From the NCBI GenBank assembly GCA_005888755.1, contig VBBQ01000028.1, positions 148,763 through 198,909 of the forward strand: DNA of 50,147 nucleotides. Reading direction: 5' to 3'. Of the stretch, positions 19,360 to 37,561 are shown piece after piece. A program made the position numbers and the translations under genes. The stretch comes from Candidatus Bathyarchaeota archaeon. GTDB taxonomy: Archaea > Thermoproteota > Bathyarchaeia > 40CM-2-53-6. The notes beneath the pieces were generated by a model, which saw only the letters and a list, made by a program, of their open reading frames with translations, did no database searches and had not been told where the DNA came from. Numbering within the stretch: position 1 is the stretch's first letter; each line of letters starts with the position of its first letter.

Positions 19360-20418
19360 CTAGCCTGACGTCGTCAGGTCAAGGCTTGAGATGGGCGCTT
19401 TCGCTTTGTCAGACCCGTTGGTCGGCAAATCGACCAAGTGGCACGCCGCCCAGTGGTCTTCCTCCACCTCTATCAGAGGCGTATCAACGAAGGTGCATCT
19501 GATATGGACATACGGGCATCTCGTGTGGAACTTACAGCCTGGCGGAGGATCGATCGGGCTGGGAATTTCGCCGCTAATCACCTCGCCTACCCGTTTGGAA
19601 TTGGGGTCGGGAACAGGGACTGCCGCGATCAAGGCTTTGGTATAGGGGTGGAGAGGATGGTTAAGGATGGCATCAGTGCTGCCAATTTCCACAACTCTGC
19701 CGAGGTACATCACCGCGATCCGATCACAGATGTGCCTTGCTAAAGCAAGGTCGTGTGTCACGTAGAGGACCGATGCTCCCCTCTTCTGGACTAGCTCGAG
19801 CATGAGGTTCAGAATCTCTGCCCTGATCGAAACGTCCAGCATGGAAACCGGCTCGTCTGCCACAACGAACTCTGGGTCCAATATGAAAGCGCGAGCGACT
19901 GCGACTCGCTGCCGCTGTCCACCACTGAGTTCATGGGGAAATCTTAGCATGAACTCCTCAGGAGGTCGGAGTTCTACTTCCCTGAGTATTTGCTTCACTC
20001 GCTCGTAGACCTCGTCATCTGTCCTAGCCACTCGCTGAATTCTGACTGGCTCGGCGACGATGTCCTTGACCAGCATTCGCGGGTCTAGGGATTCGAACGG
20101 ATCTTGGAAGATAATCTGCATCTCACGGCGGAGGGGCTTCAGTTCGCGGGAGGACAGGTGTGTAACGTCCTTGTCCTTGTACACTATCCTGCCTGCCGTG
20201 GGTTCGATGAGTCGCAGTAGCAACTTGCCTGTTGTTGTCTTGCCGCTCCCGCTTTCACCGACGAGGCCCAGAATCTCACCCTTCCTTACGAACAGGTTTA
20301 TTCCATCAACAGCCTTGACTGACAAAATGTTCTTCGAGAAAACCGTGGAAAGAAAACCTTGCTTGACCGGAAAATGTTTCTTTAATCCGTCAGCAGATAT
20401 TATTACTTGGTTTTCCAA
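19360..20418 (-). CDS. Oligopeptide/dipeptide ABC transporter ATPase (OppF/DppF type)
   Basis: A 352-residue ABC ATPase. Walker A GESGSGKT at 54-61, signature LSGGQRQRVAVARAF, Walker B in EFVVADEPVSMLD, and the C-terminal oligopeptide-specific extension with GCKFHTRCPYVHIRC. The cysteines of that extension may hold an Fe-S cluster, as proposed for relatives. It pairs with the adjacent OppD-type ATPase, 32 bp upstream, to power import. It is the last gene of the leftward importer cluster. Confidence 0.93.
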   Translation of the reverse strand: MENQVIISADGLKKHFPVKQGFLSTVFSKNILSVKAVDGINLFVRKGEILGLVGESGSGKTTTGKLLLRLIEPTAGRIVYKDKDVTHLSSRELKPLRREMQIIFQDPFESLDPRMLVKDIVAEPVRIQRVARTDDEVYERVKQILREVELRPPEEFMLRFPHELSGGQRQRVAVARAFILDPEFVVADEPVSMLDVSIRAEILNLMLELVQKRGASVLYVTHDLALARHICDRIAVMYLGRVVEIGSTDAILNHPLHPYTKALIAAVPVPDPNSKRVGEVISGEIPSPIDPPPGCKFHTRCPYVHIRCTFVDTPLIEVEEDHWAACHLVDLPTNGSDKAKAPISSLDLTTSG

Positions 20419-20450: not shown

Positions 20451-21407
20451 TTAGTAGAGGTAGCAGGCGACGGTATGCTCTCCAGATCCCTGCTTCTGGA
20501 GAACAGGGACTTCCTTTTTGCAAACCTCCATTGCGTAGGGGCAACGAGGGTGGAATCGACATCCGGTCGGTGGATGGAGGAGGTCCGGTGGTTGTCCGGG
20601 TATGGAGATGAGTTTCTTTTTCTCGCCTTTGATGCTCGGGAAGGCGCCCAACAAACCTTGGGTGTATGGGTGGAGAGGTTCTTTGAAGACGGATTCGACG
20701 TCGCCATATTCGACAATGCTGCCAGCGTACATGATTGCGATCTTTTCGCAGACCTCAGCCACAATTGATAGGTCATGGCTTATCATGACCATTGAGAGAC
20801 CTAGTTTTTCCTTCAGGCTTTTCATCAGCTGCAGGACCTGCGATTGGACAATGACGTCGAGGGCAGTACCTGGCTCGTCGGCGATCAGCAATTTCGGATT
20901 GCAAGCTAGAGCCATAGCGATCAATGCCCTCTGCCGCATTCCTCCGCTGAACTCGTGGGGGTAATTGTTGACTCTGGACGCATCGACACCAACCATTTCC
21001 AAAAGGGCTTCAGTTCTCTTGTACGCGTCAGCTTTGGTCACGTCAGGCTCGTGAAGCTTGATCGCTTCTATTATCTGGTCGCCGACCTTGAAGACAGGGT
21101 TCATCGCGTTCATGGCTCCCTGGAACACTATTGACACGCCCTTCCATCTGACTTTTCTCATCTCGGAGTCGTTGAGCGGGACAAGGTCGGTGCCATCGAA
21201 GAGAATTCTTCCTTTTCTTATCTTGGCACCGGCTGGTAGGATTTTTAGAATGGACAAGGCAACTGTGGTTTTACCGCATCCAGATTCTCCCACTAGCCCC
21301 AATGCTTCGCCCTTGCCGACTTCAAAGCTGACGTTTTCGGCAGCCCTGACCCATCCCCTTAGGGTTCGATAGTGGGTTGTGACGCCTTCAAGCTGGAGAA
21401 CTGACAT
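20451..21407 (-). CDS. Oligopeptide/dipeptide ABC transporter ATPase (OppD/DppD type)
   Basis: A 318-residue ABC ATPase with Walker A GESGCGKT at 40-47, signature FSGGMRQRALIAMAL, Walker B LLIADEPGTALD and the C-terminal oligopeptide extension GCRFHPRCPYAMEVC. It forms the heterodimeric motor with the OppF-type subunit. The start is ATG, about 100 bp after the DppC-type permease gene. Confidence 0.93.
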   Translation of the reverse strand: MSVLQLEGVTTHYRTLRGWVRAAENVSFEVGKGEALGLVGESGCGKTTVALSILKILPAGAKIRKGRILFDGTDLVPLNDSEMRKVRWKGVSIVFQGAMNAMNPVFKVGDQIIEAIKLHEPDVTKADAYKRTEALLEMVGVDASRVNNYPHEFSGGMRQRALIAMALACNPKLLIADEPGTALDVIVQSQVLQLMKSLKEKLGLSMVMISHDLSIVAEVCEKIAIMYAGSIVEYGDVESVFKEPLHPYTQGLLGAFPSIKGEKKKLISIPGQPPDLLHPPTGCRFHPRCPYAMEVCKKEVPVLQKQGSGEHTVACYLY

Positions 21408-21508: not shown

Positions 21509-22933
21509 CTATCTGCGTTTTCTGAGCTTCGGGTTGAACATCTCATCTAGTGCATAACCGAGCAGGACGAAGGATAGGGAAAGTATGGCTATGGCGAGCC
21601 CTGGTGGCACTATCCACCACCAGGCAAGATTTGCCGTATTGATCCCAGCATTGTTGGCCCTTCCCAGCATCTGGCCCCAAGTCGTGGTGTTTGGATCCCC
21701 TAGGCCTAGGAAACTTAGAGCTGCCTCCCCCACGATAGCCCCAGGGACGGAAAGAGCCAAACTCACGTAGGTAAGGGAGACGATGTTTGGAAAGACATGT
21801 CGAACTGTTATGTAGCCGGTCCCAGCCCCCGCTGCCTTGGCCGCTTCTATGAATGGCCTCTCCCGCAGCGTCAAAACTTGGGCACGGATGACCCTGGCGA
21901 AGCCCATCCATCCAAAGAACCCCAGGAAGAGTATGATGTAAAGTAGGCTAGGACCTATCGTGGCAACTAGGACTATTAGCAACGGTAATGTTGGTATGAC
22001 CAAGAGCATGTCGGTGAACCTCATGAGAACCTCGTCAACAATCTTACCCAAGTATCCAGCCATAAGGCCGATCACTAGACCGAGCGCTATGCTTATCGCT
22101 GTCGCGACTAGGCCTATTATCAGGGATAGACGGGCCCCGTACACAAGTTGTGTCGTTATGTCGTAGCCTTGGCTGTCGGTGCCGAATAAGCCCCATGTGT
22201 TGCCGTATAGGATCAGGGAGAACTGGATCACTTGAATTTCTCCAGTGAAGCCTGGAGGAAGGGTAAATTGTAGCACATAATTGTAGTTGGCTTTTCTCGG
22301 CGCGAAAATGTACGTCGCTGCATCGAAGTTCGAGTTTAGGCCGAGTTGTTGATTGAACGCTATGACCGTAGAGTCAATTGACGGGTGGGGGGAGTATGTA
22401 TCGCTGCGGTTTACTATTGTCGGAAGCCAGACGGGGAATTTGTACTCGCCGACCCGTTCTATGTATCCGGAGACGACAAACGACTTGCCCGAGATTCCCG
22501 AGACGGTAAACTTGGCTTCCCCACCCATCCACTTTGGGGGACCGAGATAGGGATATGACAGAGTCTCGGCGACCTGAATGATCCCTCCCTGGGGCGCGGA
22601 CAAGATTGTGAGGTCCACTGAGGTGGCTGTTTGAGCTGATCTTTGGACGTTGAGTCCGGTCCCGGACTGGTTCGCACTTAAGGCAGAGAAGGCTAGGTTC
22701 TGGCTATACCCTGTGGGCCCGTTAATAGAGGAGATCCACGCGGGCGCATCAAATCTCCCGGATACCACGTCTCTGCTCGGGGTGTAGGGAGTCAAGATTG
22801 GCGCGGCGAGGGCTATGAACACGAAAAAGAGGAGGAAGACAACGCCCGTGGCCGCCAGTTTGTTCTTGAGCAGGGTCGCCAGGAAATTCTTTAGCCTAAC
22901 TACCCAAAAGGGCAATCTGGCTGGCTGGGACAA
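21509..22933 (-). CDS. ABC transporter permease (DppC/OppC type) with large external insertion
   Basis: A permease of the dipeptide/oligopeptide class. The first helix (about 28-45, AATGVVFLLFFVFIALAAPI) and the usual FGTDSQGYDITTQLVYGAR motif (from 250) are normal, followed by the inner-membrane domain with the EAA-like loop (AAKAAGAGTGYITVRHVFPN). The 474-residue length exceeds the usual 280-310. The excess is a predicted extracytoplasmic domain of about 165-190 residues between helix 1 and the GTD motif, Ser/Thr/Gly- and beta-rich. It may contact the unusual binding protein. The gene starts 9 bp after the DppB-type permease. Confidence 0.9.
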   Translation of the reverse strand: MSQPARLPFWVVRLKNFLATLLKNKLAATGVVFLLFFVFIALAAPILTPYTPSRDVVSGRFDAPAWISSINGPTGYSQNLAFSALSANQSGTGLNVQRSAQTATSVDLTILSAPQGGIIQVAETLSYPYLGPPKWMGGEAKFTVSGISGKSFVVSGYIERVGEYKFPVWLPTIVNRSDTYSPHPSIDSTVIAFNQQLGLNSNFDAATYIFAPRKANYNYVLQFTLPPGFTGEIQVIQFSLILYGNTWGLFGTDSQGYDITTQLVYGARLSLIIGLVATAISIALGLVIGLMAGYLGKIVDEVLMRFTDMLLVIPTLPLLIVLVATIGPSLLYIILFLGFFGWMGFARVIRAQVLTLRERPFIEAAKAAGAGTGYITVRHVFPNIVSLTYVSLALSVPGAIVGEAALSFLGLGDPNTTTWGQMLGRANNAGINTANLAWWWIVPPGLAIAILSLSFVLLGYALDEMFNPKLRKRR

Positions 22934-22942
22934 TCAGCGAAC

Positions 22943-23974
22943 TCACTCGTACTTTATTCTAGGGTCGATCATGCCGTAGAGTATGTCAGAGACTAGGTTC
23001 GCGCCTATCACGCATAGTGCGATGATGTAAAACACCGCCTGCATGACCGGAAAGTCGTGCCAGCCAATGGCTTTGAAGAGCCAAGATCCCATGCCGTCCC
23101 AGTTGAAAACTGTCTCGGTAATTATGGCTCCGGATAGGATTGTGCCGAAGGAGAGAGCGGCGTTGGTCACTATGGGGAGAGACGCGTTTTTCAGGGCGTG
23201 TTTGAAGAGGACGGTTCGTTCTGGCAGTCCCTTCGCTCTGGCTGTTGTAATGTAGTCTTCCGTCAAAGCCTCTGTCATGGTGGCCCTGGTTAGGAGGAGA
23301 TTTCCCCCATAGAAATACATCGTTAGGGTTAGAGCTGGGAGGAATAGGTACTTCATTCTGACGAGAATCTGTTCTGTAAGGGGCACTTGGCCTTTGATCC
23401 ATTCCGTGGTAGACGGGGTCACTCCTCCTCCGGGGAACCAGCCGAGGATTGCAGCGAAAACCAGGATGAACACAAGGCCGATGAAGAATGTTGGGAGAGA
23501 GTAGGTAGTGAGGGAAACTACAACCGACGAGCTGTCGAACAAGCCGCCTCGCCTAGAAGCGGCAATCACCCCTAGAAAGATTCCGATCACAAGTGCGATG
23601 GCCGTGGAGACTCCTAGGAGGAGGAGGGTGTTGACGAGCCTTCCTGAGTTGACGATGTCGTAGAGAACAGGGTCTCCCGTCTGCTGCGAAGTGCCAAAGT
23701 CAAACGTAATCATCCTAGTGAAGTAAACCGTAAACTTGGTCCAAACACTGGCGGGGATGCATTTTCCGCTAGCGTCGAATCCACTGCAAATCCCGTAGAC
23801 GATTTCCAGGTGCCTAAGCGAGTCCGGGGACACGCGAGGGTTCTGGATCAGGTTCGCTATCGAGCCCTGCGTTCCTGGCAGCAACTCGAAGATGGCGAAG
23901 TTTAGGACTATCACGAATACCAGAAGGATCGCTGTGTTGATCAGACGCTTAATCAGGTAGAGGCGAAATCCCAT
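22943..23974 (-). CDS. ABC transporter permease (DppB/OppB type)
   Basis: A 343-residue permease with an N-terminal helix (INTAILLVFVIVLNFAIFEL), an external segment containing the DFGTSQQTGDPV motif, and five further helices. The cytoplasmic coupling loop is in TTARAKGLPERTVLFKHALKN. It ends with MIDPRIKYE, the usual C terminus of DppB proteins. A small insert with two cysteines (ICSGFDASGKCIP) precedes the external motif. It forms the membrane channel with the next gene. Confidence 0.93.
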   Translation of the reverse strand: MGFRLYLIKRLINTAILLVFVIVLNFAIFELLPGTQGSIANLIQNPRVSPDSLRHLEIVYGICSGFDASGKCIPASVWTKFTVYFTRMITFDFGTSQQTGDPVLYDIVNSGRLVNTLLLLGVSTAIALVIGIFLGVIAASRRGGLFDSSSVVVSLTTYSLPTFFIGLVFILVFAAILGWFPGGGVTPSTTEWIKGQVPLTEQILVRMKYLFLPALTLTMYFYGGNLLLTRATMTEALTEDYITTARAKGLPERTVLFKHALKNASLPIVTNAALSFGTILSGAIITETVFNWDGMGSWLFKAIGWHDFPVMQAVFYIIALCVIGANLVSDILYGMIDPRIKYE

Positions 23975-24118: not shown

Positions 24119-27100
24119 CTAGCATCCAGCAGCGACACAGAAGAACGGGTCTATCTGCGGATCTACCTGGAAGAGCGTTGACGGGCTGAATGGTGTGGTA
24201 ATGCCGTGTCCGAAGTATATGGCTACCGTTGCCAGGTCTACTGCTCCGACTGTTGTGCCTCCTGCAATGTTCGAGTTGACCCAGTATGGGTCAGTTGTAC
24301 CATAGTGAGAGGCGACATCGGCCAGATCGAGAATGTTAACCACTCCATCGTTGTTGTGGTCAGCATAGCTGAGCTTGTAGAGCGAGCTACTGGTGGCTGT
24401 CGGCCCGGTTGGGCAGCATCGTGCGTTGAAAGTGTTGTACGAGAGGAGGATTCTGCCGTCGCGAGTTATCGCTTGTCCTGTTAGCGCACCGGTAGATGTC
24501 TCAGCGCATGGACCACCGACGTGGCCTGCCGTGACACCTGTTCCAGATATCGGAGCAATGCATGACCATGGTCCTGGTCCTACTTCGATGCCCGGGCTGT
24601 TAGCGCTCGGATACATCGGGTCGAACGTTGGACTGGCGCAAACTCCGCCTGCGACCGGCGGGTCACCGCAATAGGGTGCCCACAGTGACTTTTCAAGGAC
24701 GAGCTGCACGGCGCCGATGTTGAACTCGAACAGTGAGCTTTGGCCTTGTAGTTTCACTTGGAGTGTCTTGCATGGTTGTCCGGTCCCGCAGTCGAGACCT
24801 GTAGCGCTGACAACGTTCAGCACGTAGGACTGAAGCAGTGAGCTGGGCACGTCTCGGTTGGCGATGATAGTGTAAGCTACGTCAGTAGCCTTGACATCGT
24901 TGCCGTCCGAGAATTTCCAGTCGTTGCGTATGTGCCAGATCTGGGTAGTAACGCCGGTAGCGCATCCGTTGATAGAGTTGCATCCAACCTCGGTTGGGTT
25001 GAAGGTGGCGCTGTGACTGGTGGTTCCCCAGTCAATGAACTGGGCGGCTGCACCTCCAGTGTTGGGGTTGGCGTTGAGCATCGCATCATAGACCTGTGCG
25101 AGGAAGTCGAATTCCCAGACGCTGTTGGCGGTGAACGGGCTGAGGTTGCTGGTGTCCTGAGAAAAGCCTCGGCGTATGACGCCGGGCGTGGGCTGATTTG
25201 CTGGGTTGCTAGCTGTGTATCCTGGAACCTGGCGAGCGTTCAACAATGTAAAGTAAGGAGCTCCCGCGAGCGTACCGAAGCCTACAGTGTTGACGATACT
25301 TGCCTGGGTAGACACGCACGTTGTAGTGCACTGTTGGAAGTTGAAGCCATTGTTCTCGGCGAAGGTGTCGACGAAGGCGAAGCCTGGTATGTGATGACTC
25401 CACTTGAGATCGTCACCTATCGCTCTCTGGAAGAACGCGCTTGATAGAGCGGCTGTCGGGGCGAATTCGCCTGCGTTGGCATTGGTGTCTGTTTGTGGTT
25501 CGCAGAAGAAGTGATAGTTGTTCGGCTTGAGGGCGGGTGTGCCAGCACAGATCGCACCAGTGTTGATACTGTGGCTGTTGAGGAAGTACTGGTCGGGAGT
25601 GGGGTCAAAGCCCTGGCCTTCCGTGTAGAACTGCCAGGCGCTCGGGCTTCCTCCGGAGACCGACGTGTCTTCGAAGACGATGGGCGTCACTTGGGTGAAG
25701 GTGTAGTATTTGGGTGTGAACTGGGTGCATGGACTGGTCCTTGCATCGTAGCATACTGTGCCAACAAAACCGGTCTGAGTAGCTCTACTCTGAGGTGTTC
25801 CGAAGAGGAAGTTCAACTCGTCAGCGACGATCTGACCGAATTGTTGTCTTCCAAAGTTGACTCTGACATAGGTCTTGATTTGGCCGTTAGGCACGATGTG
25901 CGCGTATGCTCCAGGGTCTGTGGTTAGATCAGCTGCACTGGCTACATTGTCGCAGGTGGCGGTTGAAGGCGATAGTGTGAGACCCATGGAAACGAAGTCG
26001 TCACAGGCAGCCCGCAAATCGTTGTGGCCAGAGTAGCCCGCAACGAGACCGGTAGTGCCTGGATTCCACCAGCGAGAGTTCACGTTCACAGTGCTATCAG
26101 TAATGTGGTATGGACCGACATCGTGTCCGGTTGCTCCAGTGGAGCAGCCGACAACATTGAGCCAAGGATGATTACCGAATTGACATTCGGCAATGTCCAC
26201 CTCAGTGGCCGGGCCTCCTGCTGCATTCGTAACCGGACATGCTGGTGCACTCTGACACAAGTATTCGCTGGTAGTGCCTATCGGGCAACGACCTCCTTGT
26301 CCCGGAACCCAGAATACGCATGGCGCTGAGGCCACACCTGTCATTGTGGTTCGGACAAAGGCTGGATCGTCTAGCAAGTGGTGGAAGGCAGCACCGAGAA
26401 GTGCTCGGGCTGTCGTCGGCTTGACGGTGCTGGGACTGTTCCAGTTTACGTTGAACGTGCCACTGGTAACCGCGGCACTAGCGATACTCACCGCGATGGT
26501 TCCAGTTGCGCCGGTTCCATTGTAGACGTTGGATCGGAGAGAGTAACTTCCGGCAAGGGTACATGGGATAGTGTAGACACCGTTCGGAGTTGCACCTCCC
26601 GAGTCGCTAACTGTAACCGATGGTGAACCGCTCGGCTGGTTGGCCGCCGTCAAAGTGCTGAGCGTGTCCAGAATGTTTGAGCCGGTCTCCTGGTTCCGGA
26701 GAGTTATACTCAACGAGCCGAAACCAGCACTGCAGCCTGCAGCCGTACCGGTTGTGGTGAATGAAGCCGGGGTCGTGGTTCTTGGGACCTGTAGTGCAAT
26801 TCCCATGAAGGCAGGGAAGCTGTTGACGTCGACTCCGAAGTAACCAAGTTCTGCTTGAGGACCGGTGCAGAAGAAGTCGGCGTTGCCGCAGAAAGTGGTG
26901 ATGTCGGAGCTAGATTGTAGAGGCCAATCGCTGACGTCAATCTCACCTAGCTGGAAGTGAGAGAACATGACATCAAAGTCGGAGTAGAAGTGCATGATCA
27001 ACTGCTGAGTAAAAGGCCCGTAAGCCGAAAAGCGAGTAGGACCGCTCTGGTTGATTGCGCGTACCTGATTGTACGTTCCTGGTAGAGCCATGAGAAGAGT

Positions 27101-27142
27101 TAGACTTAGCATTAGAACTAGAATTGGTGTAGTTATTCGCAT
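24119..27142 (-). CDS. ABC substrate-binding protein (SBP_bac_5-like), apparently permuted, with C-terminal dockerin
   Basis: A 1007-residue exported protein with a signal peptide (about 1-29). Segments of the peptide/nickel binding-protein family are present but in an unusual order. The GEIDVSDWPL segment (66-75) and the ALLGAAFHHLLDDPAFV segment (247-263), normally in the second half, come first. The segments NLSPFTANSVWEFDF (666-680), WKFSDGNDVKATDVAY (742-757) and GPGPW (855-859), normally N-terminal, follow. Residues 928-980 are dockerin-like: DHNNDGVVNILDLADV..HYG, then a degenerate second copy. About 18 cysteines suggest disulphides. It is the first gene of the importer cluster, with a TATA-like TCTTAAAAGG about 40 nt before the ATG. 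Confidence 0.85.
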   Translation of the reverse strand: MRITTPILVLMLSLTLLMALPGTYNQVRAINQSGPTRFSAYGPFTQQLIMHFYSDFDVMFSHFQLGEIDVSDWPLQSSSDITTFCGNADFFCTGPQAELGYFGVDVNSFPAFMGIALQVPRTTTPASFTTTGTAAGCSAGFGSLSITLRNQETGSNILDTLSTLTAANQPSGSPSVTVSDSGGATPNGVYTIPCTLAGSYSLRSNVYNGTGATGTIAVSIASAAVTSGTFNVNWNSPSTVKPTTARALLGAAFHHLLDDPAFVRTTMTGVASAPCVFWVPGQGGRCPIGTTSEYLCQSAPACPVTNAAGGPATEVDIAECQFGNHPWLNVVGCSTGATGHDVGPYHITDSTVNVNSRWWNPGTTGLVAGYSGHNDLRAACDDFVSMGLTLSPSTATCDNVASAADLTTDPGAYAHIVPNGQIKTYVRVNFGRQQFGQIVADELNFLFGTPQSRATQTGFVGTVCYDARTSPCTQFTPKYYTFTQVTPIVFEDTSVSGGSPSAWQFYTEGQGFDPTPDQYFLNSHSINTGAICAGTPALKPNNYHFFCEPQTDTNANAGEFAPTAALSSAFFQRAIGDDLKWSHHIPGFAFVDTFAENNGFNFQQCTTTCVSTQASIVNTVGFGTLAGAPYFTLLNARQVPGYTASNPANQPTPGVIRRGFSQDTSNLSPFTANSVWEFDFLAQVYDAMLNANPNTGGAAAQFIDWGTTSHSATFNPTEVGCNSINGCATGVTTQIWHIRNDWKFSDGNDVKATDVAYTIIANRDVPSSLLQSYVLNVVSATGLDCGTGQPCKTLQVKLQGQSSLFEFNIGAVQLVLEKSLWAPYCGDPPVAGGVCASPTFDPMYPSANSPGIEVGPGPWSCIAPISGTGVTAGHVGGPCAETSTGALTGQAITRDGRILLSYNTFNARCCPTGPTATSSSLYKLSYADHNNDGVVNILDLADVASHYGTTDPYWVNSNIAGGTTVGAVDLATVAIYFGHGITTPFSPSTLFQVDPQIDPFFCVAAGC

Positions 27143-27242: not shown

Positions 27243-28637
27243 CTAAAGAGGTTCTATCTTGAGATTTCTTCTTCGTCTAAGAAATCCCACGGCAACTCCA
27301 ATTGCTGCAACAGCTGCAACGCCTCCGACCACTTGAAGGAGCAGAGTGGTGGTGTCGGTGGGGGCGATGCCGAGTTGGCTAGTATTCAAACCTTCACGAC
27401 AGTTCTTGGCGCTGGCCAGTTGTACAGTGGCGACTATGCTGTAAATTCCGACCGGCAAGTGGGATGTTGGCAGAGTATCGTTATAGTGCAGTATCTGATT
27501 CGGCTTGATACTCTGATTTGGTATTACCGCTAGGGTTGCGTTAGGGGGCCCGTAAGCTATAGTCAGGTTGAAGGTTTCCCGGAACGTTCCGGTGTCTTGA
27601 ACTTCGACCGTGAATGGCACGTTCGTCCCAGGCTTAACCTGATTGACGTTGGTCTGAATCCCCTGGACAGCAACGCAGTGTATCGGCGGAGGGACAATAG
27701 TTAGCAGCGTTACCATCATACCCTGAAAACCGCTGTCTTGATCTATGACTGTCACACGGATTGAAAAGTTGCCCAAGAATATGTTGGCCCCATTTGAAAA
27801 CACGTGAGTGGTTATGTCCACGTTCAAGGTTGTATTCGCGGTCCCGGATGAATCCCCAAAATCCCAAAGGTACTTCAGGATTCCCTTGTTCTGCGCCTGC
27901 TGATTGTCGGGGTCGAAGCTCTTTGTCGCGTTGAAGGTAACTATGTCACCCTGTTGAGGACTGGTTGGAGAAACGGTGAATAATGCGGTTGGACCTTCCA
28001 TGCCGGCGACATTCTTGAAATAGCCATCAACAGTCTCAACGCCATACCTTATCTGATCGTACCCGTCGATGAGACGGGTCCAGTTCGGGGACCCTGTTGG
28101 ACATCCTTGAGGACAGAGCCCTCCGGGAGGCTGAGCGCTGTAGCTAGCGGCTGACATTCCGGCCGCCAGGGCTAGAGGGCTAACACCGACCTTCAGTACC
28201 GAAAAGACGAGGTTGGCAAGCGTGCCCGACCCTCCGAGGAAGAGCCCGTGGTTGTTGGTGGTCGTGGCAAGATTCACGACAGCCAACCTCAGAGCACCTG
28301 TATTGTTGTAGTTGCTGGGAGACTTGTACGAATTATCGAAAACTGTGCCTGTTGAGATATCGTAGGAATAGAGGCTGATGTAGTTCTGGTCAAAGTAGAG
28401 AGCGAATTCGTAGGCGTTGAAAGGAAGGGCGTTCGTCACGTTGACCTGAACAGAGAATCGCGACCCAATAGTCAAGGAAGGATCGGTAATGTTCGCGCTA
28501 CCATACGTGCTGCTGAACACTCCCACAATCGCAAGGTTGCCTTGGCCGTGAGCTTTCTCAAAGAAAGGAACAGCCAAGAACAGAGACACTATCCCAAGGA
28601 ACAATAGTAGCGCTGGCTTGGCAGGAAGGTGAGACAA
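27243..28637 (-). CDS. Cohesin-like/PKD surface protein with C-terminal anchor
   Basis: A 464-residue protein: signal peptide about 1-31, a cohesin-like beta sandwich about 34-160 (RFSVQVNVTNALPFNAYEFA with YFDQNYISL), a PKD domain about 215-312 (YLWDFGDSSG), a CARDB-like beta domain about 318-425, one transmembrane helix (about 436-456) and a basic stop sequence FLRRRRNLK. It should stand on the cell surface and could hold dockerin-bearing partners. It lies just upstream of the dockerin-bearing binding-protein gene in the same direction, with a 100-bp gap. The start is TTG; a TATA-like ACTTTTAAGG lies about 45 nt upstream. Confidence 0.75.
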   Translation of the reverse strand: MSHLPAKPALLLFLGIVSLFLAVPFFEKAHGQGNLAIVGVFSSTYGSANITDPSLTIGSRFSVQVNVTNALPFNAYEFALYFDQNYISLYSYDISTGTVFDNSYKSPSNYNNTGALRLAVVNLATTTNNHGLFLGGSGTLANLVFSVLKVGVSPLALAAGMSAASYSAQPPGGLCPQGCPTGSPNWTRLIDGYDQIRYGVETVDGYFKNVAGMEGPTALFTVSPTSPQQGDIVTFNATKSFDPDNQQAQNKGILKYLWDFGDSSGTANTTLNVDITTHVFSNGANIFLGNFSIRVTVIDQDSGFQGMMVTLLTIVPPPIHCVAVQGIQTNVNQVKPGTNVPFTVEVQDTGTFRETFNLTIAYGPPNATLAVIPNQSIKPNQILHYNDTLPTSHLPVGIYSIVATVQLASAKNCREGLNTSQLGIAPTDTTTLLLQVVGGVAAVAAIGVAVGFLRRRRNLKIEPL

Positions 28638-28803: not shown

Positions 28804-30933
28804 TCAGGTCAGGGGAGCACGTCGAGCTCTTCTCCTCCTGAGGAAGAGAAGGCCGGCGACAGCCGCGATAACAACCGCTGCCACACCCGCATAGATTAGA
28901 GTCGAGTTGTCCAGTGGAGGAGGAGGCACCACGGATGCTTGGGACACTGTTTCGACGTGGGTCTTGTAGAATTTCCGACCGCCAGAATCAGTGACCGTCA
29001 CCGTTACGGTATAGTTGCCGCTTTTGGCAAAGGCGTGGGCCGTCGAGGCGCCTGTATCTGTTGACCCGTCGCCGTAGTCCCAGAAATAAGTGTAAGGTGG
29101 GACGCCGCCGGAGATAGCCGCCGTGAATGTTACCGACTGACCTGTAACAGGGGACGTCGTGGAGAGACTGAAGTCCCCTGCGACAACACTTGCAACACTA
29201 ACGCTTGCAAAACTGCTCTCCCCAATTTGGGGGGTTTCACCGTCTTGGGCGACGACCGTGATGGGATAGCTCCCGGCGACTGTGTAGTTGTGACTGGCCG
29301 AGGCAGGGTAGGGAGAGATGAACCCGGTATTCGTTACGACTGACGAGGTACCGTCTCCCCACTTAATCGTGTAGCTGAAGAGTACTGACCGGAACCCTAA
29401 GCCCGATGGGTACGCGTTTGAGTACGTAATGCTTGAGGTGACTTTGACGGGGAAACCTACAGTCGCATTTTGCGTATTGACCACTGTTAGGACAGTGAAC
29501 ACTGGGGTGCCTCCGGTCACATTGACTCGACCGTAAGCTTGGATGGCACTAGGTGGAACTAGTCCTAAACCAGAGTCAGTGACCGTAAGGCTGACGTTGT
29601 AGACTCCGGAAAAATGATAACCTGGTGAAGCGCCGCTGAGGATTTGTGTATTGTTCTGGCTCCGCTGAGAGGTGATAGATGGAGCGGGCTTTGCGCATAC
29701 CGCGGTGTTAGTGCCTGGCGCCGGGGCTGGGCAGAACCTCCATTTCACAGAGTACTTGGCATTCCCTCCTAGCCAGAAACCGCTCCATGTCCCTGACGTC
29801 TCAGTTGCAAGATTGCTGGGTCCTCGAATCGCTGCTGCGAACGGACGCTCGACAACTGTGACATTATGAGGAGTAGGCGTTGCACTGTCGAGAACTCTCA
29901 GGGTCACTCGGCTTACGAAGATCGAAGCATTGCCGTTAGGTGCTGCTATGATTGCAGGATTACCACTGATCTGTGAACTAAACAGATCTGTGTTTGTAGT
30001 ATTGAAATTCCAACCATAAGTCAAGGTTCCTGTGCATCCTGTGCAAGCTATTGTGGAAGTAAACGTGATCAGCGGACCAGGGCCGGATGGGTCTAGCGAG
30101 AAGGTGAAACCTCCACTCCAATTAAGCGTGTGAGCAGGATCAGAATAGGATTCGCTGTCGAAACTTCCCTGGATAATCTGATGAACCACAGGACCGGGAT
30201 TCAAGATACCGCCTTGGCTTCCGTGGCTGATAGTCAGCCCGGTGTTCCCGATACCAACAACATCAAACCTAAGCCGGAAGAGGATGAAGTTACTGCCGTA
30301 GCTTGCGAAAACCAGTTGCAACAGGTGAGCTTGACCAGCAGCATTGTCGATCGTTTGGACGGCATTGAAAGGAGACAAGGCCGCCCAGTTAGTTCCTCCC
30401 AGGTCAAACATCACGGCGTGAAGGATGTTCGGGTTCCACGAGACAAAGATGTCAAAACCGTTCATCGCTGAAGTGGCATTCTGTATGTAGACTACATCGG
30501 CAGTGAAGCCTCCACCGATCTGCGGAGAAACTGTGCTGAATGTTTCATCTTGGTCAGATACTAAAGGCTCTGTGGTCTTGTCGGAAGGAGCCATCGTGGT
30601 ATAATTTCCTACATCGCCGATCCAGGTACATGAGCTACTAGTCTGGAAGACTCCATTCTCGCTTGGAGCGACAGGGAAACCTGTGCCGTTCACCACTGCT
30701 TCTTTCGCTCCAAGCCCACAGTCAATACCTAGCTTGGGCAGGTTGGGAACAGACGGCTGAATGGTTCGTCTTGCAACATTCGACAGCCCGATATTCGAGA
30801 ATGCTGGAGACGCTAGAGAAAGAGTTGTGAGAATAACGATCATGGAAACCGTGATTAGGAGTCCGAGATTCTTGTTCTTCTTCGGCGATCGATTCAAGGC
30901 GTTCAGGGTCCAGTATTTACTTCCATATAGCAT
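28804..30933 (-). CDS. Cohesin-like/multi-PKD surface protein with C-terminal anchor
   Basis: A 709-residue protein with an N-terminal hydrophobic export segment (about 20-45). A cysteine-containing lead (LGIDCGLGAKEAVVNGTGF) precedes a cohesin-like domain (about 135-260; IFVSWNPNILHAVMFDLGG). Four PKD-like modules follow (for example FSYTIKWGDGTSS and YFWDYGDGSTD). The C terminus has a transmembrane helix (AGVAAVVIAAVAGLLFL) and RRRRARRAPLT. Its first 260 residues closely match those of the 2118-residue protein at 38566-44922, so the two genes share a duplicated N-terminal half. The start is ATG. Confidence 0.75.
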   Translation of the reverse strand: MLYGSKYWTLNALNRSPKKNKNLGLLITVSMIVILTTLSLASPAFSNIGLSNVARRTIQPSVPNLPKLGIDCGLGAKEAVVNGTGFPVAPSENGVFQTSSSCTWIGDVGNYTTMAPSDKTTEPLVSDQDETFSTVSPQIGGGFTADVVYIQNATSAMNGFDIFVSWNPNILHAVMFDLGGTNWAALSPFNAVQTIDNAAGQAHLLQLVFASYGSNFILFRLRFDVVGIGNTGLTISHGSQGGILNPGPVVHQIIQGSFDSESYSDPAHTLNWSGGFTFSLDPSGPGPLITFTSTIACTGCTGTLTYGWNFNTTNTDLFSSQISGNPAIIAAPNGNASIFVSRVTLRVLDSATPTPHNVTVVERPFAAAIRGPSNLATETSGTWSGFWLGGNAKYSVKWRFCPAPAPGTNTAVCAKPAPSITSQRSQNNTQILSGASPGYHFSGVYNVSLTVTDSGLGLVPPSAIQAYGRVNVTGGTPVFTVLTVVNTQNATVGFPVKVTSSITYSNAYPSGLGFRSVLFSYTIKWGDGTSSVVTNTGFISPYPASASHNYTVAGSYPITVVAQDGETPQIGESSFASVSVASVVAGDFSLSTTSPVTGQSVTFTAAISGGVPPYTYFWDYGDGSTDTGASTAHAFAKSGNYTVTVTVTDSGGRKFYKTHVETVSQASVVPPPPLDNSTLIYAGVAAVVIAAVAGLLFLRRRRARRAPLT

Positions 30934-31004: not shown

Positions 31005-34000
31005 TCAGACGCTCTTGCCGTAGTTAATCGCGACCAGGGCCAGGTCTAGCACACCAATCGGCTTCCCCGGGTCATTGTCGACATCAACGTACTGGTCACA
31101 CATGGTACCGGGTGTCGGCATCTGTCCATAGCAGATAGCCACGAGAGCTAGGTCGAGGATGTTTATCTTTCCGTCTCCATTGGCGTCTCCCGGTGGAGAG
31201 ACCCTGAGAGGATAGAGCGCCAGGGATTCGTCTCCTTGGTTGCCAGCGAAATTCTCAGCGGGAGAAATATTTGTGAGAGTGGCCAGGATCGTGTATCTTC
31301 CCCAGGGCTGGGCGCTGGTCCAGTTAAAATAGAGTGTTTGAGACTGGCCTGGGGTCAGTGTGAGATTCCAGGCTTTGAGAACGTTGCTCGTATTGTTGGC
31401 CACGAGCGTCAGTCTTGCAGTCTCGAGCGAGTCTCCGTAGTTTGAGACTATTGTTGTTATGTTCACTGGATAGTTCGACCTTACGAGCCCTGGAGTGGCG
31501 GAGAGGAATCGGACTCCTACATCATTGACTCCCGAGATCGGATTTGAGCTAGAGAACAGGATTTCCAGGCTTGAGGAGATGAGGCTGTTCCAGAAAACCC
31601 AGATTCGCCTGTCGCTGTTCTGGACCGCCGCGGGTCCGGTGTCTTCTCCAGTTGTTAGCTGAGTTGCAGGAGACCAGCTTGCACCATTAGGATCGGTTGC
31701 CGTAGCGTAGAAAATGTACTCTGATGGAGGGCTGACGGTGGACCTCTGGAAGAAGACCCAGTATGTTCCGTCCCGGGCCTGAAGTGTTACTGGATGATCG
31801 TCGTCGTTTGAAGTGCTGAAGAGGAAGCCTGTCTTCGGAGTCCAAGAGCCTGCAGGAATACCAGTTGATGGTAGAGTTGTGACAGTGCCATTCGTCGTTG
31901 TATAGTATAGGTTTAGGTTCGTCGTGTCGTTAGACGACCAGAAAATCCGTATCTTACCATCTCTAGTCTGAGTTATGGACGGACTTTTCTGGCCTAGATT
32001 TGATACAGATGCTGGGGGCAGCGGGAATTCAGAGGACCATCCGGTTCCGTTGTAGTACTTGTAATAGACCTGGCTCAGAGTGCCTTGAGAATTCTGTCTG
32101 GACCACGTCACCCAGATCCTCCCGTTTCGGTCTTGAACAGCGGAAGGCGCTTTGTCATTCATGGTGGACGAGGTTAGTTGGACGGGACCGGTTGTAGCGT
32201 GCGGATTATTCTCAGTGCTTGAGTAGAACCGGTAGAAGATCTGGGGATGCCCTGTACTGTTGGAGGACCAGAGGATCATCATCGTCTGGTTGACCAGTTG
32301 AGTGATGAAACTCTGCGCATCATTGGACGACCCTGTCGTGACCGATTGTTTGACGGACCAAGCAGTCCCGTTCCACATCTTGAAGTAGATTATAGGGTTC
32401 AGTAGCGAGCCAGACGGTTTTTCATTCCAAGTCAGCCATATCCGTCCGAGATAGTCAACGGAGGCTGAAGGTGACAGGAAGAGGCTTGTGGAAGGAGTCG
32501 GTCCTGCAATGACTAGATCGCCCTGGTCGTATACGTTGTTAGTGTTAGTGTCGTAGGCAACCGTTTCGCCAAGGTCCCACCGACCATTGTTATTCGAATC
32601 AAAGTATTTGACGCGAGTGTCGCTCCCAAGCGCGGTCCCGTTTAGAGGTTGAGTTCCGGACACGACCGTCTCCCCTGACTCGTAGGTGGAGTCGCCGTTG
32701 TTGTCGTACACCACGACCGCTCCAGAACTCCACGCACCAGAGCCCGGTGCTCCGTTGGCTATGACGGACTCGGTCCGTTCGTAGAGACCATTACTGTTGC
32801 TATCGTAGACTATCGTTTCTCCCGGGCTCCACAGACCCGTTCTCGGCACGTCGATGAACCTGAGATTGGGGTCGGATTTCAGCAGAGTCCCGATCGCGGG
32901 AGTAGTGCCGGCGATTACAGGCTCGCTGAGTAAAGTGCCCCCTAGCGGGGACATACCAACGACGACGGTGTCGCAGCACGGATTAAAGAGACCGTTGGAG
33001 TCAGTGTCATAGACCAAGGCTTCTCCAGGGTTCCACCAGGTGTTTCCGTCCGTCTCAACATACTTCATCTTTGAATCGAACTTTATGGCTGTTCCGACAG
33101 CCGGACGCGCGCCAGAGAGGACGGGTTCCATCAAAACCGTGCCGTTTGGGGGAGCAGATCCAACCACGACCAAATCGCCGGTCACATAGATATGGTCCGA
33201 GTCCGCATCATACACAATAGTCTCACCTCTGTCCCAGTGACCACTAAGATTGGCGTCTACGAAGTGAAAATGATTGTCGATAGTCAGAATCCCGCTGCCA
33301 TCGGTCGGCGGGGTGGGTCCAATAATTACAGTGTCACCGGTCCTGTAGATGCCGCTGCCGAATATGTCGTAGATCACGGAGTCGGGCCCTGGATCGTAGA
33401 TCCCGTTCCCATTTGAATCGAAGTATTTGATTTTCGAGTCAATTGTAGCGTTGAAATATCCCTGGTTGATCGTGTCGTAGACAACTGTTTCACCGGTGTC
33501 CCAGACGTTGTTACTGTTCGCATCTACAAATCTGATTTTAAGGTCAGAGTTCAACCCTGCGAGCGACGGAGGATTAGCAGACAGAAGAAGAGGCTCGGTT
33601 GACTCGTAGATGTTGTTTCCGTTGCTGTCGTACGCAACTGCCTCTCCTGTGTCCCAGACGCTATTTCTGTTGGTATCGATGAACATGATCTTTGGGTCAG
33701 CCTTGAGAGAAGTTCCAACGGCTGGTGTTGGCCCGTATAGAACGCGGTCGCCTGTAGCGTATACACCTGAAAGGTTTGCGTCGTAGACTACCGATTCCCC
33801 TGTGTCCCAGTGGCCGTTATTGTTTGTATCAACGTATTTGAGATGGGGGTCGATCGACGCGCTGTATAGACCATTGTTGTTACTGTCATAAACGACGGGA
33901 TTGCCTGGGACCCAGGAAGAACCTGGGCCAATGAATTTGACATGACTATCATTTGTCAGAGAAGTGCCGGGGACGACCGGTGTCCCTCCGATGACCGGGT

Positions 34001-34475
34001 TCCCTGTGATGTAGCGGTTACTATTGCTGATGTCGTAAACGACGCTTTCGCCCGCGTCCCAGCGGTTGTCTCCATTGATGTCAACATACTTGACGAGCGG
34101 GTCAGCTCTGAGCGTAGCCCCCGGGGCGACGCTTCCTGCAATGACGGGTTCGGTAGACTCGAAGATGCTATCGTTGTTCGAGTCGTACAGCACCGGCTCA
34201 CCAAGGTCCCAGTGGGCGTTCGCGTTAAGGTCGACGAACTTGACGAGGGAGTCACGTTTCAAGACCGTGTTATTAGCCGGAGAGGTGTCCACAAATCTGA
34301 GCTTGGTATCGAGGGAAAGGGTGGTTCCCATGGGGACCGGCTGGGGTCCCGAGAAGGTCTGGGCTTTCACTACTGGAAACTGGAAGATGGCAAACATGCT
34401 GATTATCAGGAGTGAGAGTACGAGGAATGCGCGGGATACTTGTCTTGCCGAGGCCTTTGGAGTCATGAGCGTCAC
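31005..34475 (-). CDS. Secreted Ca-repeat/propeller protein with C-terminal dockerin
   Basis: An 1156-residue exported protein. Signal peptide about 1-38; then about 640 residues of acidic repeats (KYVDxNxNGxWDxGE alternating with VVYDSNNNGxYE). Next come about 300 residues of propeller-type repeats with Trp-rich blades (GRIWLTWNEKPSG, GKIRIFWSSNDTT, RRIWVFWNSLISS), a CARDB-like domain (about 960-1060) and a C-terminal dockerin-like pair: DANGDGKINILDLALV..CYG and a second DVDNDPGKPIGVLDLALV..NYG. It could bind sugars or other cell-surface ligands through the propeller. No membrane anchor is present; attachment through a cohesin protein is the natural inference. Confidence 0.78.
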   Translation of the reverse strand: MTLMTPKASARQVSRAFLVLSLLIISMFAIFQFPVVKAQTFSGPQPVPMGTTLSLDTKLRFVDTSPANNTVLKRDSLVKFVDLNANAHWDLGEPVLYDSNNDSIFESTEPVIAGSVAPGATLRADPLVKYVDINGDNRWDAGESVVYDISNSNRYITGNPVIGGTPVVPGTSLTNDSHVKFIGPGSSWVPGNPVVYDSNNNGLYSASIDPHLKYVDTNNNGHWDTGESVVYDANLSGVYATGDRVLYGPTPAVGTSLKADPKIMFIDTNRNSVWDTGEAVAYDSNGNNIYESTEPLLLSANPPSLAGLNSDLKIRFVDANSNNVWDTGETVVYDTINQGYFNATIDSKIKYFDSNGNGIYDPGPDSVIYDIFGSGIYRTGDTVIIGPTPPTDGSGILTIDNHFHFVDANLSGHWDRGETIVYDADSDHIYVTGDLVVVGSAPPNGTVLMEPVLSGARPAVGTAIKFDSKMKYVETDGNTWWNPGEALVYDTDSNGLFNPCCDTVVVGMSPLGGTLLSEPVIAGTTPAIGTLLKSDPNLRFIDVPRTGLWSPGETIVYDSNSNGLYERTESVIANGAPGSGAWSSGAVVVYDNNGDSTYESGETVVSGTQPLNGTALGSDTRVKYFDSNNNGRWDLGETVAYDTNTNNVYDQGDLVIAGPTPSTSLFLSPSASVDYLGRIWLTWNEKPSGSLLNPIIYFKMWNGTAWSVKQSVTTGSSNDAQSFITQLVNQTMMILWSSNSTGHPQIFYRFYSSTENNPHATTGPVQLTSSTMNDKAPSAVQDRNGRIWVTWSRQNSQGTLSQVYYKYYNGTGWSSEFPLPPASVSNLGQKSPSITQTRDGKIRIFWSSNDTTNLNLYYTTTNGTVTTLPSTGIPAGSWTPKTGFLFSTSNDDDHPVTLQARDGTYWVFFQRSTVSPPSEYIFYATATDPNGASWSPATQLTTGEDTGPAAVQNSDRRIWVFWNSLISSSLEILFSSSNPISGVNDVGVRFLSATPGLVRSNYPVNITTIVSNYGDSLETARLTLVANNTSNVLKAWNLTLTPGQSQTLYFNWTSAQPWGRYTILATLTNISPAENFAGNQGDESLALYPLRVSPPGDANGDGKINILDLALVAICYGQMPTPGTMCDQYVDVDNDPGKPIGVLDLALVAINYGKSV
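32410..34350 (-). repeat. Tandem YDxNxNG / DxNxNGxWDxGE protein repeats
   Basis: Roughly eleven units of about 55-60 codons, each with two acidic loops and a spacer such as VIAGxxPxxGTxLxxDP. Units are diverged, so the array is old or under selection to differ. The gene at 18400 carries about two units of the same type. Confidence 0.7.
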
Positions 34476-34533: not shown

Positions 34534-35421
34534 CTACGATTTGAGCTTGAAGAACAGACCGGTAAGAGTCTGCCCGTTCACGCATGTTGAGGGGTCTGAG
34601 GTTGTACAGCGGAGTACGGTTGCGACGATGTGGTAGGTTCCTATAGCGAAGCCGGATGTGTCAAAGGTGTATGTTGCTGTTACTGTTAGCGAGTCGCCTG
34701 GGAATCCGAATGCAATATTGGACTGGATTGGGGTGTCGACACCGTTCGGGTCGATGACGTCGAATGTGACGCCTCCGAAGCCTGCTCTAACGTTGCTCGA
34801 AAGCATCAGTACGAAGCCTACGAGCGTTACTTGGGTGTCTCCATGGCTGATTCTGCTGAGTCTCTGACCAGCTGCCACGGTAGCGTTTGGTATTATGAAT
34901 GTCAGCGAGGGCGGTACGCCAAAGGTTCCGTCACTAGTCGTAACTGGCGCGATAGTTGGACCAGGAAGTACAGCCAGTTGAGCGAGGGCAATTTGCAGAG
35001 TTGCAAAACTAGCCTGCAGCGGTGTGAAGGTGAGCACTAGCACAGCGGTTGGACTGCTTATTGATGCTGAGGATCCGCCTAGGGAAACTGCTGCCGCCTC
35101 GGCAGAGCCGGTCCCGTTGGAACAGAAGTTGTGGAGTCCAACTGGGAAGTTGTTTGGAAGGATCACTGGGAAGCTCGCTGCGGTGCAGCTAACGACTGAG
35201 GGGTCGTAGTTCAGTATGACATCGTAGCCGACTAGCATGTCGACGCTATTGACGGTGACGGAAACGGTGAAGCTTCCTCCGACGTCGGCTGCAGATATCG
35301 CTGGGTCAACTGCGACAACGGCGGGTCCTGTTGCATGGACAAGTAGCGATGGTGCTTCGGGGATGACGGTCATTAAGCTGAGTACTGCGATGAGTAGTGG
35401 TGTAATTACTCGTCTATTCAA
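34534..35421 (-). CDS. Secreted cohesin-like domain protein
   Basis: A 295-residue exported protein: signal peptide about 1-30, then a cohesin-like domain about 33-170 (GGSFTVSVTVNSVDMLVGYD with NYDPSVVSC), then an Ig-like beta domain to the C terminus. No membrane anchor. Of the four cohesin-like proteins it has the clearest YDPSVV motif and the least extra sequence. The start is TTG about 30 nt after the minus-strand box CTTATATGA (about 35450-35458), so a nearly leaderless mRNA is likely. The Ca-repeat dockerin gene follows 58 bp downstream, suggesting a cohesin-dockerin gene pair. Confidence 0.78.
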   Translation of the reverse strand: MNRRVITPLLIAVLSLMTVIPEAPSLLVHATGPAVVAVDPAISAADVGGSFTVSVTVNSVDMLVGYDVILNYDPSVVSCTAASFPVILPNNFPVGLHNFCSNGTGSAEAAAVSLGGSSASISSPTAVLVLTFTPLQASFATLQIALAQLAVLPGPTIAPVTTSDGTFGVPPSLTFIIPNATVAAGQRLSRISHGDTQVTLVGFVLMLSSNVRAGFGGVTFDVIDPNGVDTPIQSNIAFGFPGDSLTVTATYTFDTSGFAIGTYHIVATVLRCTTSDPSTCVNGQTLTGLFFKLKS

Positions 35422-35779: not shown

Positions 35780-37561
35780 GTGGACAGGATGCACTCGAGG
35801 ATTTTCGCGAGAACACTTCTGCTGTTCAGCATGATCTTACTCTTGGCCTCTTTTCCGCACTCGTCGTTCTTTGTCCGGTCGAATCCAAACACACTTCATG
35901 TTCCGCAGGACTACGCGACGATCCAGGCAGCGGTGAACGCTGCCAGCTCAGGCGATACTATCATCGTCTCTCCCTCGCCTTCGGGAACCTATCCGGGAAA
36001 CATTACTATCAACAAGAGCCTGACGTTGATGGGTATCTCCGCCAAATCGGTGATCATAAACGCATCTAACATTGGTCCCGGCATAATCATCAACGCTACT
36101 GGCAAAGTCTCGGTTTCCCAACTCACTGTACAAGATCCTGATTCGTTCAGTAACGGGATATCGATACTATCCTCCTTGGACGTGACTGTGACGGGCGTTG
36201 TTGTCAAGTCGACTGTTTCACAAACCGGGTCGAATGGTACCTGGGTTTCGAACTCGAACAATGTGATTCTGAGAAACAATACGATTACGGGGAACCTTTA
36301 CGGTGTGGCCGTCCAAGGCGGTTTCAGCAATACAATCCAGGCGAACAATCTTACTCTGAACCATGCTGCTGGCGTGCTCCTGGCCGGTGCAACGGGAAAC
36401 CAGATCAAGAACAATTACTTGAGCAAATCCCAGTCGGGAATCGACGTCTGGTATGGTTCCACGGGAAACGTCGTGGCGAATAATCCTGCGATCGCGAACA
36501 ACAGCCTTGCGGGAATATATATTTCAGGATCCAGCGCCAACCAGATAATAGCGAATAATATTGACTTCAATAATTCAACATCCACCTCTACGGGAGTTTA
36601 CTTGTCAGCCACTTCTGGAAACAGTTTCTACTACAACAACATTAGACACAATTCTATCCAGGTTTTCGGCGTCGGTAGCTCGGACCTAACCGCTAACTAC
36701 TGGAACGATGGAGCCACTAGCAAACAGGGAAACTTTTGGAGTTTCTACCCAGGGGTTGATGATGGGTCAGGAGGTAGGCCCGCGGGCGACGGTGTCGGGG
36801 ACACCTACCTTCCATGGCCTTGTCCTAGCGGTGGAAGACCTTGCTCGGTTACTGGTCCTGCAGGGGTCGACTATTATCCTCTCATGCTTCCAGTTAAGCC
36901 GCCTACCCTGAACGTTACGGCTATTGCGAGGCCTTTGAGCGGCTGCTCCCTGCCCATTCCCCTGCGGGTTAATTTCACAAGCTCTGCAACAGGCGGTTCC
37001 CCGCCTTACTCGTACTCTTGGAAGTTTGGCGACGGGAACACAGGAACGACGCAGAACGCTACTCATGCATACTCGGCTAGGGGAGTCTTGCGCGCCACGG
37101 TTACGGTGAATGATACTTCGCTCCCCAGCAATTCGGCAACCGATATCGTGAACATACTCTCTTTCTCCGGCGGTCTTTCGCTAAGTGTTCTCGACGACGC
37201 TAAGAACGTGGTTGCCGGTGCTAACGTGACTTCACTGTCTCAACCGCCCGGCCAGGCGAGGTTGAACAAGGCAACGAATTCAACAGGGTCTGTCCTAGTT
37301 CCATGTCTGCCGCCTGGCTCCTATAGGATTCAACTGTCCAAGCAGGGATACGAGACCGTGCTGACGACGATTACAATCGCGAATTCTACCATTATCCAGA
37401 GCGTGACGCTTGTCGGGGTTCAAAACGCTTTCCCATTGGCCCTACTGGAATACGCGGGAGTTGGAATCGCGTTAGCTGTTATTCTGGTGGCGGGGTCGTT
37501 TCTGTGGCGCCGGTCAAAGCGCGGAAAAAGGACTGCTCAGACTCTGCAGACGAAACCATAA
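35780..37561 (+). CDS. NosD-like beta-helix / PKD surface protein with C-terminal anchor
   Basis: A 593-residue exported protein. Signal segment about 10-32; a parallel beta-helix of the NosD/pectate-lyase-like type about 38-300 (DYATIQAAVNAASSGDTIIV, then repeated NNxIxxNxxGI rungs); a PKD domain about 385-445 (YSWKFGDGNTG); a carboxypeptidase-regulatory-like domain about 465-535; a transmembrane helix about 553-575 and a basic tail (RRSKRGKRTAQ). Beta-helix proteins of this class often bind or modify polysaccharide; no catalytic residues can be assigned here. The start is GTG. Confidence 0.8.
   Translation: MDRMHSRIFARTLLLFSMILLLASFPHSSFFVRSNPNTLHVPQDYATIQAAVNAASSGDTIIVSPSPSGTYPGNITINKSLTLMGISAKSVIINASNIGPGIIINATGKVSVSQLTVQDPDSFSNGISILSSLDVTVTGVVVKSTVSQTGSNGTWVSNSNNVILRNNTITGNLYGVAVQGGFSNTIQANNLTLNHAAGVLLAGATGNQIKNNYLSKSQSGIDVWYGSTGNVVANNPAIANNSLAGIYISGSSANQIIANNIDFNNSTSTSTGVYLSATSGNSFYYNNIRHNSIQVFGVGSSDLTANYWNDGATSKQGNFWSFYPGVDDGSGGRPAGDGVGDTYLPWPCPSGGRPCSVTGPAGVDYYPLMLPVKPPTLNVTAIARPLSGCSLPIPLRVNFTSSATGGSPPYSYSWKFGDGNTGTTQNATHAYSARGVLRATVTVNDTSLPSNSATDIVNILSFSGGLSLSVLDDAKNVVAGANVTSLSQPPGQARLNKATNSTGSVLVPCLPPGSYRIQLSKQGYETVLTTITIANSTIIQSVTLVGVQNAFPLALLEYAGVGIALAVILVAGSFLWRRSKRGKRTAQTLQTKP

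Follow-up and report, generated by a model that had tools for sequence, protein, structure and literature searches.

The protein encoded at positions 24119–27142 of the window (the whole 50,147-nucleotide stretch of a Candidatus Bathyarchaeota genome analysed here), which we refer to as dSBP, has, by profile comparison, truly undergone circular permutation: it is a family-5 solute-binding protein (SBP; cluster C, DppA/OppA-like) with its C-terminal two-thirds placed before its N-terminal third and a dockerin at the end of the chain. On the same comparisons it departs from the canonical order, and belongs to SBP_bac_5/cluster C only as a circularly permuted branch. From sequence and gene neighbourhood we consider it quite probable that this permutant docks via its dockerin on cohesins of neighbouring gene products and feeds an adjacent ABC importer.

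Segment order of dSBP

The features of the gene and its product are as follows (all on the minus strand).

24119–27142, minus strand: dSBP, a permuted SBP_bac_5 protein with C-terminal dockerin, 1007 residues; a single uninterrupted open reading frame with no stops
27050–27142, minus strand: signal peptide, residues 1–31 (sequence and hydropathy scan)
25298–27040, minus strand: canonically later SBP part, residues ~35–615 (template 185 to ~450; profile matches and colinearity with type B)
26432–26782, minus strand: insert, predicted to be beta-rich, residues ~121–237 (unmatched gap between SBP matches; low-to-medium-confidence model)
24416–25195, minus strand: canonically first SBP part, with WKFSDG and GPGPW, residues 650–909 (template 3–187, 3e-15; Pfam match at 732–766; PDB matches)
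24122–24382, minus strand: dockerin and tail, residues ~921–1007 (first calcium loop DHNNDGVVNILD intact, second degenerate; solved dockerins matched at 5.6e-6)

The motifs on which the initial annotation had based its proposal of a circular permutation are present at the residues it named: GEIDVSDWPL begins at residue 66 and ALLGAAFHHLLDD lies near 248, both ahead of WKFSDG...VKATDVAY (near 742–756) and GPGPW (near 855–859). We compared a profile of the dSBP family (A1, an alignment of 14 full-length members) with a canonical template (a profile built on 15 SBP_bac_5 proteins from the same class, all in normal order). Four matches were obtained, with residues 650–909 falling on template positions 3–187 (3e-15), 38–79 on 185–225 (5e-4), 239–288 on 252–301 (6e-4) and 506–591 on 377–449 (E=0.017); they are complementary, involve no duplication, follow one another in cyclic rotated order and represent both lobes (template 3–449). 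The N-terminal part of the family scored 41, against a maximum of 23.7 for decoys (60 shuffled or reversed templates). The strongest single result for the order is the alignment of A1 in one piece to a profile of 14 permutants of type B (described below), spanning 557 columns (1–890 on 36–606) at E=1.5e-39. Together, these comparisons uphold the proposed permutation. A rotation scan of the dSBP family alone gave a small gain, from 130 to 134, which we do not count as proof.

In a PDB search, A1 positions 716–800 matched SBP chains at ~66–150 and positions 524–574 matched DppA chains at ~432–489. Among the matches listed for the SBP part of the family, all are family-5/cluster C chains, with none of cluster B (MglB-like), and every solved SBP chain listed as a match has the canonical order. 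The insert at residues ~121–237 has no counterpart in canonical SBPs. AlphaFold2 models reached a pLDDT of only 39.3 for residues 32–1007 (9 sequences) and 45.7 for residues 635–1007 (8 sequences), values too low for structural interpretation. In the rearrangement the old N- and C-termini were probably joined via a linker, with new ends opening in a loop that has the GPGPW/rNpnY segment on one side and GEIDV on the other (AppA ~209/212).

Two other accounts of this order were weighed. Two partial SBP domains might have been fused in one chain, in place of one rotated domain, and ~60–90 residues of weak template similarity do lie between the SBP-like regions; we regard this as very improbable, however, since the regions cover complementary, non-overlapping stretches of the template (185–449 and 3–187), and type B, with which the SBP part of the family aligns colinearly throughout, has halves that sum to exactly one SBP. 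Neither a normal order nor a pair of partial domains, the outcomes named beforehand as fatal to a permutation, emerged from the profile comparisons. Circular permutation usually arises when a gene is duplicated in tandem and the outer halves are then lost. This route, and the tandem paralogue arrays present in the genome, might lend some credit to an artefact in which a chimeric assembly or frameshift joined the ends of neighbouring tandem SBP genes, but the prospect is negligible, as it is refuted by a frame without stops and by 14 independently assembled full-length homologues. These homologues come from six genomes and share an identical arrangement, signal peptide first and dockerin last; the recurrence of the order in five other genomes and in same-genome paralogues tells us that it is not an assembly error.

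Residue 909 closes the SBP part of dSBP and the dockerin starts at ~921, where type B has a C-terminal helix, and on these matches the dockerin does appear to sit exactly at the permuted C-terminus, as had been proposed. Its first calcium loop, DHNNDGVVNILD, fits D-x-N-x-D-G-x-x-N-x-x-D, with key positions invariant across the family alignments; the second segment, TTVGAVDLATVAIYFG, is degenerate and lacks acidic ligands, such that the domain does not show a duplicated calcium loop. A profile of the dockerin family matched solved dockerins in the PDB (best 2y3n, 5.6e-6). In a 1334-residue relative (L006, G000:C17:3-4004), NHL-like repeats (~300 residues) split the dockerin region into two halves. 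A hydropathy scan of dSBP found no hydrophobic anchor segment beyond the signal peptide.

Standard profiles respond poorly to the protein. Against SBP_bac_5 (PF00496) dSBP scores 21.2 bits, below the cut-off of 32.4, with only 35 residues seen (732–766 on profile 17–51), and against the Pfam dockerin (Dockerin_1) it gives a partial match of 13.9 bits, below the cut-off of 22.9. PF00496 matches occur in all 14 members of the family (best E 1.1e-16), some homologues standing above the cut-off, yet single-protein searches of Pfam, NCBIfam and the PDB are almost blind to dSBP. We attribute this to the permuted order, as a result of which SBP_bac_5 scores such proteins low or detects one half only.

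Permutation types within and beyond the phylum

The initial annotation had presented dSBP as a single odd protein, a description that must be abandoned, as it belongs to a large class with several cut points. Scanning open reading frames with a canonical profile of 552 positions, we found that Bathyarchaeia contain three permuted arrangements and other Thermoproteota a fourth. In canonical profile positions, type A runs from ~380 round to ~375, type B from ~238 to ~240, type C from ~282 back to ~282, and type D from 114 round to 103. In all four types the two halves each match significantly (in the type C protein L088, 1e-55 and 2e-46). Against AppA (1xoc), the type B profile aligns over 43–356 to 212–517 and then over 367–569 to 19–209, and the type A profile gives 359–505 first, then 24–354; type C is likewise swapped against 8upi, and type B also against solved DppA. 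When the canonical profile was doubled, types A, B and C each aligned as one contiguous piece (462–472 columns, E=1e-66 to 1e-80; for type B, 469 columns at E=1.5e-66). Rotation scans peaked at 340 (A), 200 (B), 240 (C) and 60 (D), with canonical controls at 0.

In 300 sampled genomes of the phylum, colinear matches to type B over nearly its full length were present in more than 12 families; type A was present in f11, f20 and f26 and also in the window's own family. All 10 PF00496 matches in the window's genome (2.0 Mb, 95% complete) lie in permuted genes. Named records with relatives of dSBP are mostly 'Candidatus Bathyarchaeota' metagenome-assembled genomes. Individual loci add detail: L011 (G000:C25:20714-22585), in the window's own genome, is a type A protein of 692 residues with a C-terminal transmembrane helix, and many genomes of the genus carry close copies; a further type A copy (L012, L046; G000:C2:2-1216, minus strand) is truncated at the contig end and has one in-frame TAG; and in the type D proteins L140 and L142 (G261, G192) only the first canonical segment (profile 53–103) is now C-terminal, with a Tat-like N-terminal segment ahead. 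Two assignments were revised: a group of 865–904-residue proteins, labelled canonical in the tree described below because its first half alone had been detected, is colinear with type B on profile comparison, and the fragment L136, rejected as type A, is type B with an internal stop.

Permuted members also occur outside the phylum, in isolates of Halobacteria and Alphaproteobacteria. A tblastn search of plasmids with a type B query led to substrate-binding proteins of Nitratireductor (such as WP_113156578.1 of Nitratireductor sp. OM-1), of two Roseomonas species and of Haladaptatus, all in type A order (for the Nitratireductor protein, hmm382-521 at 1e-21, then 41-377 at 1e-74). ABC permease genes adjoin the type A genes in three alphaproteobacterial records (Nitratireductor, Roseomonas). 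The Nitratireductor query matched 55 records of the plasmid collection at ≥80% coverage, in Halobacteria and Alphaproteobacteria, nearly all of those listed as a single colinear piece. These plasmid proteins resemble dSBP in being circularly permuted members of the same family; they differ in having another cut point and no dockerin, and are annotated only as 'ABC transporter substrate-binding protein'.

A tree was built from sequences restored to canonical order (a quick reconstruction with SH-aLRT values only, in which deep forks remain open and several branches are long). Type B needs one origin, types C and D are single clades, and type A is split between two clades, with type C as the sister group of one, a topology that suggests at least four permutation events among cluster C SBPs. 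The sister clades of type C (L088-L090) and type A (L113, L074, L112, L077) belong to one genus and have different cut points, so a single lineage may have undergone permutation twice.

Anchoring varies with permutation type. By hydropathy, a single hydrophobic segment, at the N-terminus, is present in the canonical proteins scanned, in type C and in one type A clade; type B and the second type A clade combine an N-terminal segment with a transmembrane helix at the C-terminus. These data raise the idea that permutation may determine the face by which the receptor is tethered. We set aside tethering as what drives permutation in general: the Nitratireductor permutant looks soluble and stops shortly past the cut, where a C-terminal anchor would have no space, and tethering is therefore not the sole reason.

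Cohesin and importer genes around dSBP

On either side of dSBP lie genes for cohesin and dockerin proteins and for the components of an Opp-type importer.

34534–35421, minus strand: Coh3, small secreted protein with cohesin (Cohesin 1.1e-4, just under the Pfam cut-off; conserved)
31005–34475, minus strand: DocBig, large secreted protein with C-terminal dockerin (Dockerin_1 1e-4; conserved in the cluster)
28804–30933, minus strand: CohPKD2, cohesin-like N-terminal region, PKD domains and C-terminal transmembrane helix; proposed docking partner (PKD_4 1e-19; hhalign cohesin-like 4e-7)
27243–28637, minus strand: CohPKD, cohesin, PKD and C-terminal transmembrane helix; proposed docking partner (Cohesin 5e-7, PKD 2e-5; solved cohesins ~0.0015)
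22943–23974, minus strand: OppB-like permease (BPD_transp_1 8e-40; conserved beside dSBP)
21509–22933, minus strand: OppC-like permease, long insert following its first transmembrane helix (BPD_transp_1 5e-30, OppC_N 6e-9)
20451–21407, minus strand: OppD-like ATPase (Walker A and ABC signature in the sequence; conserved in the cluster)
19360–20418, minus strand: OppF-like ATPase (sequence; conserved in the cluster)

The nine window genes from Coh3 to OppF all lie on the minus strand, with intergenic gaps of 9–166 bases. The arrangement Coh3-DocBig-(dSBP)-CohPKD2-CohPKD-dSBP-OppB-OppC-OppD-OppF recurs, whole or in part, in six genomes (the window's, G005, G010, G012, G014 and G018). Opp-type permeases and two ATPases adjoin dSBP in the window and its relatives: at least one dSBP directly precedes OppB-C-D-F in the window, G005, G010 and G018, and in G014, as far as its sequence was read, a dSBP precedes OppB-C. 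The OppC-like permease (474 residues) carries ~190 residues between its first transmembrane helix and the permease domain, and its homologues in the relatives are of 478–487 residues. DocBig contains many repeats of the type DxNxNxxWDxGExVVYDxNxxxxYxxGDxV, resembling calcium-binding loops, ahead of its dockerin.

The dSBP region of the window encodes many secreted dockerin and PKD proteins. They include a NosD/beta-helix and PKD protein (35780–37561), a small dockerin protein of 232 residues (37606–38304), a 2118-residue relative of CohPKD2 that combines six PKD domains with an Ig-like domain (38566–44922; 8e-112) and a dockerin protein of 581 residues (45244–46989).

We infer the pairing of cohesin with dockerin, ligand binding, transport and the nature of the substrate, and propose the following working. 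The signal peptide would direct export of dSBP, which has no membrane anchor of its own; its dockerin would bind the cohesin of a membrane-anchored cohesin-PKD protein, such as those whose genes lie immediately upstream. So docked, dSBP would stand on a stalk next to OppBCDF, the importer encoded downstream, to which it would deliver the captured solute, probably a peptide or oligosaccharide.

A different use of the same parts is conceivable but unlikely, namely that the permuted scaffold has left transport and become a dockerin-linked adhesive or sensory surface protein, displayed together with the dockerin and PKD proteins of the region. Such a role would suit the long inserts of dSBP and its low similarity to canonical SBPs, as well as surroundings rich in PKD and dockerin. 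It would also suit the tandem paralogues at G000:C25:113022-125202 (L044, L045), an array of four dockerin-SBPs with 47–76% identity to dSBP around which no Opp permease genes were found in the ~40 kb examined; some dSBP copies are hence not tied to an adjacent importer. Against it stands the placement of dSBP directly before OppB-C-D-F in four genomes and before OppB-C in a fifth, which favours the importer receptor.

Relation to known systems and implications

Cluster C SBPs are among the best-studied receptors. With the solved DppA, OppA and AppA (SBP_bac_5; PDB 1xoc, 1dpp), dSBP shares homology over both halves and the OppBCDF neighbourhood; it differs from them in its rotated segments, long inserts, absence of a lipid or membrane anchor, and added dockerin.

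The suggestion that a binding protein attached by a dockerin would be a new arrangement does not survive comparison with the literature, since dockerin-containing SBPs of NikA/OppA and TroA type have already been reported from ANME archaea (PMC9012536). Like dSBP, these are archaeal ABC-transporter SBPs with a dockerin, and cohesin proteins are encoded in the same genomes; the section that describes them mentions neither permutation nor a conserved cohesin-SBP-Opp cluster (PMC9012536). Natural permutation of SBPs likewise has precedents. TpMglB-2 (Tp0684) of Treponema pallidum, designated 'Type Ic/Cluster Bc', is a naturally circularly permuted SBP whose authors consider permuted homologues to be probably tethered (PMC4990184); unlike dSBP, it is a glucose-binding protein of a different fold cluster (B), with a lipid tether and no dockerin (PMC4990184). 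Glycine-betaine-binding proteins, also within the ABC-transporter SBPs, are related to one another by circular permutation (PMC2395249), but form a different, smaller SBP class that lacks a dockerin (PMC2395249). Dockerin-SBPs and permuted SBPs of other clusters are therefore already known; for permuted SBPs of cluster C (SBP_bac_5), we found no description in the open-access literature.

Overall, we judge it reasonably likely that cluster C SBPs have been permuted repeatedly in nature, at no fewer than four surface loops, in Thermoproteota, Halobacteria and Alphaproteobacteria, and that in soil Bathyarchaeia one lineage swapped its membrane anchor for a dockerin, working with membrane-anchored cohesin stalks as a modular receptor of an ABC importer. 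Given how poorly profiles detect permuted SBPs, archaeal importers may be under-annotated. Segment order in the SBP_bac_5 family is far less fixed than the solved structures imply, and its repeated natural permutation marks loops that tolerate new termini, a property of relevance to folding and to biosensor design.
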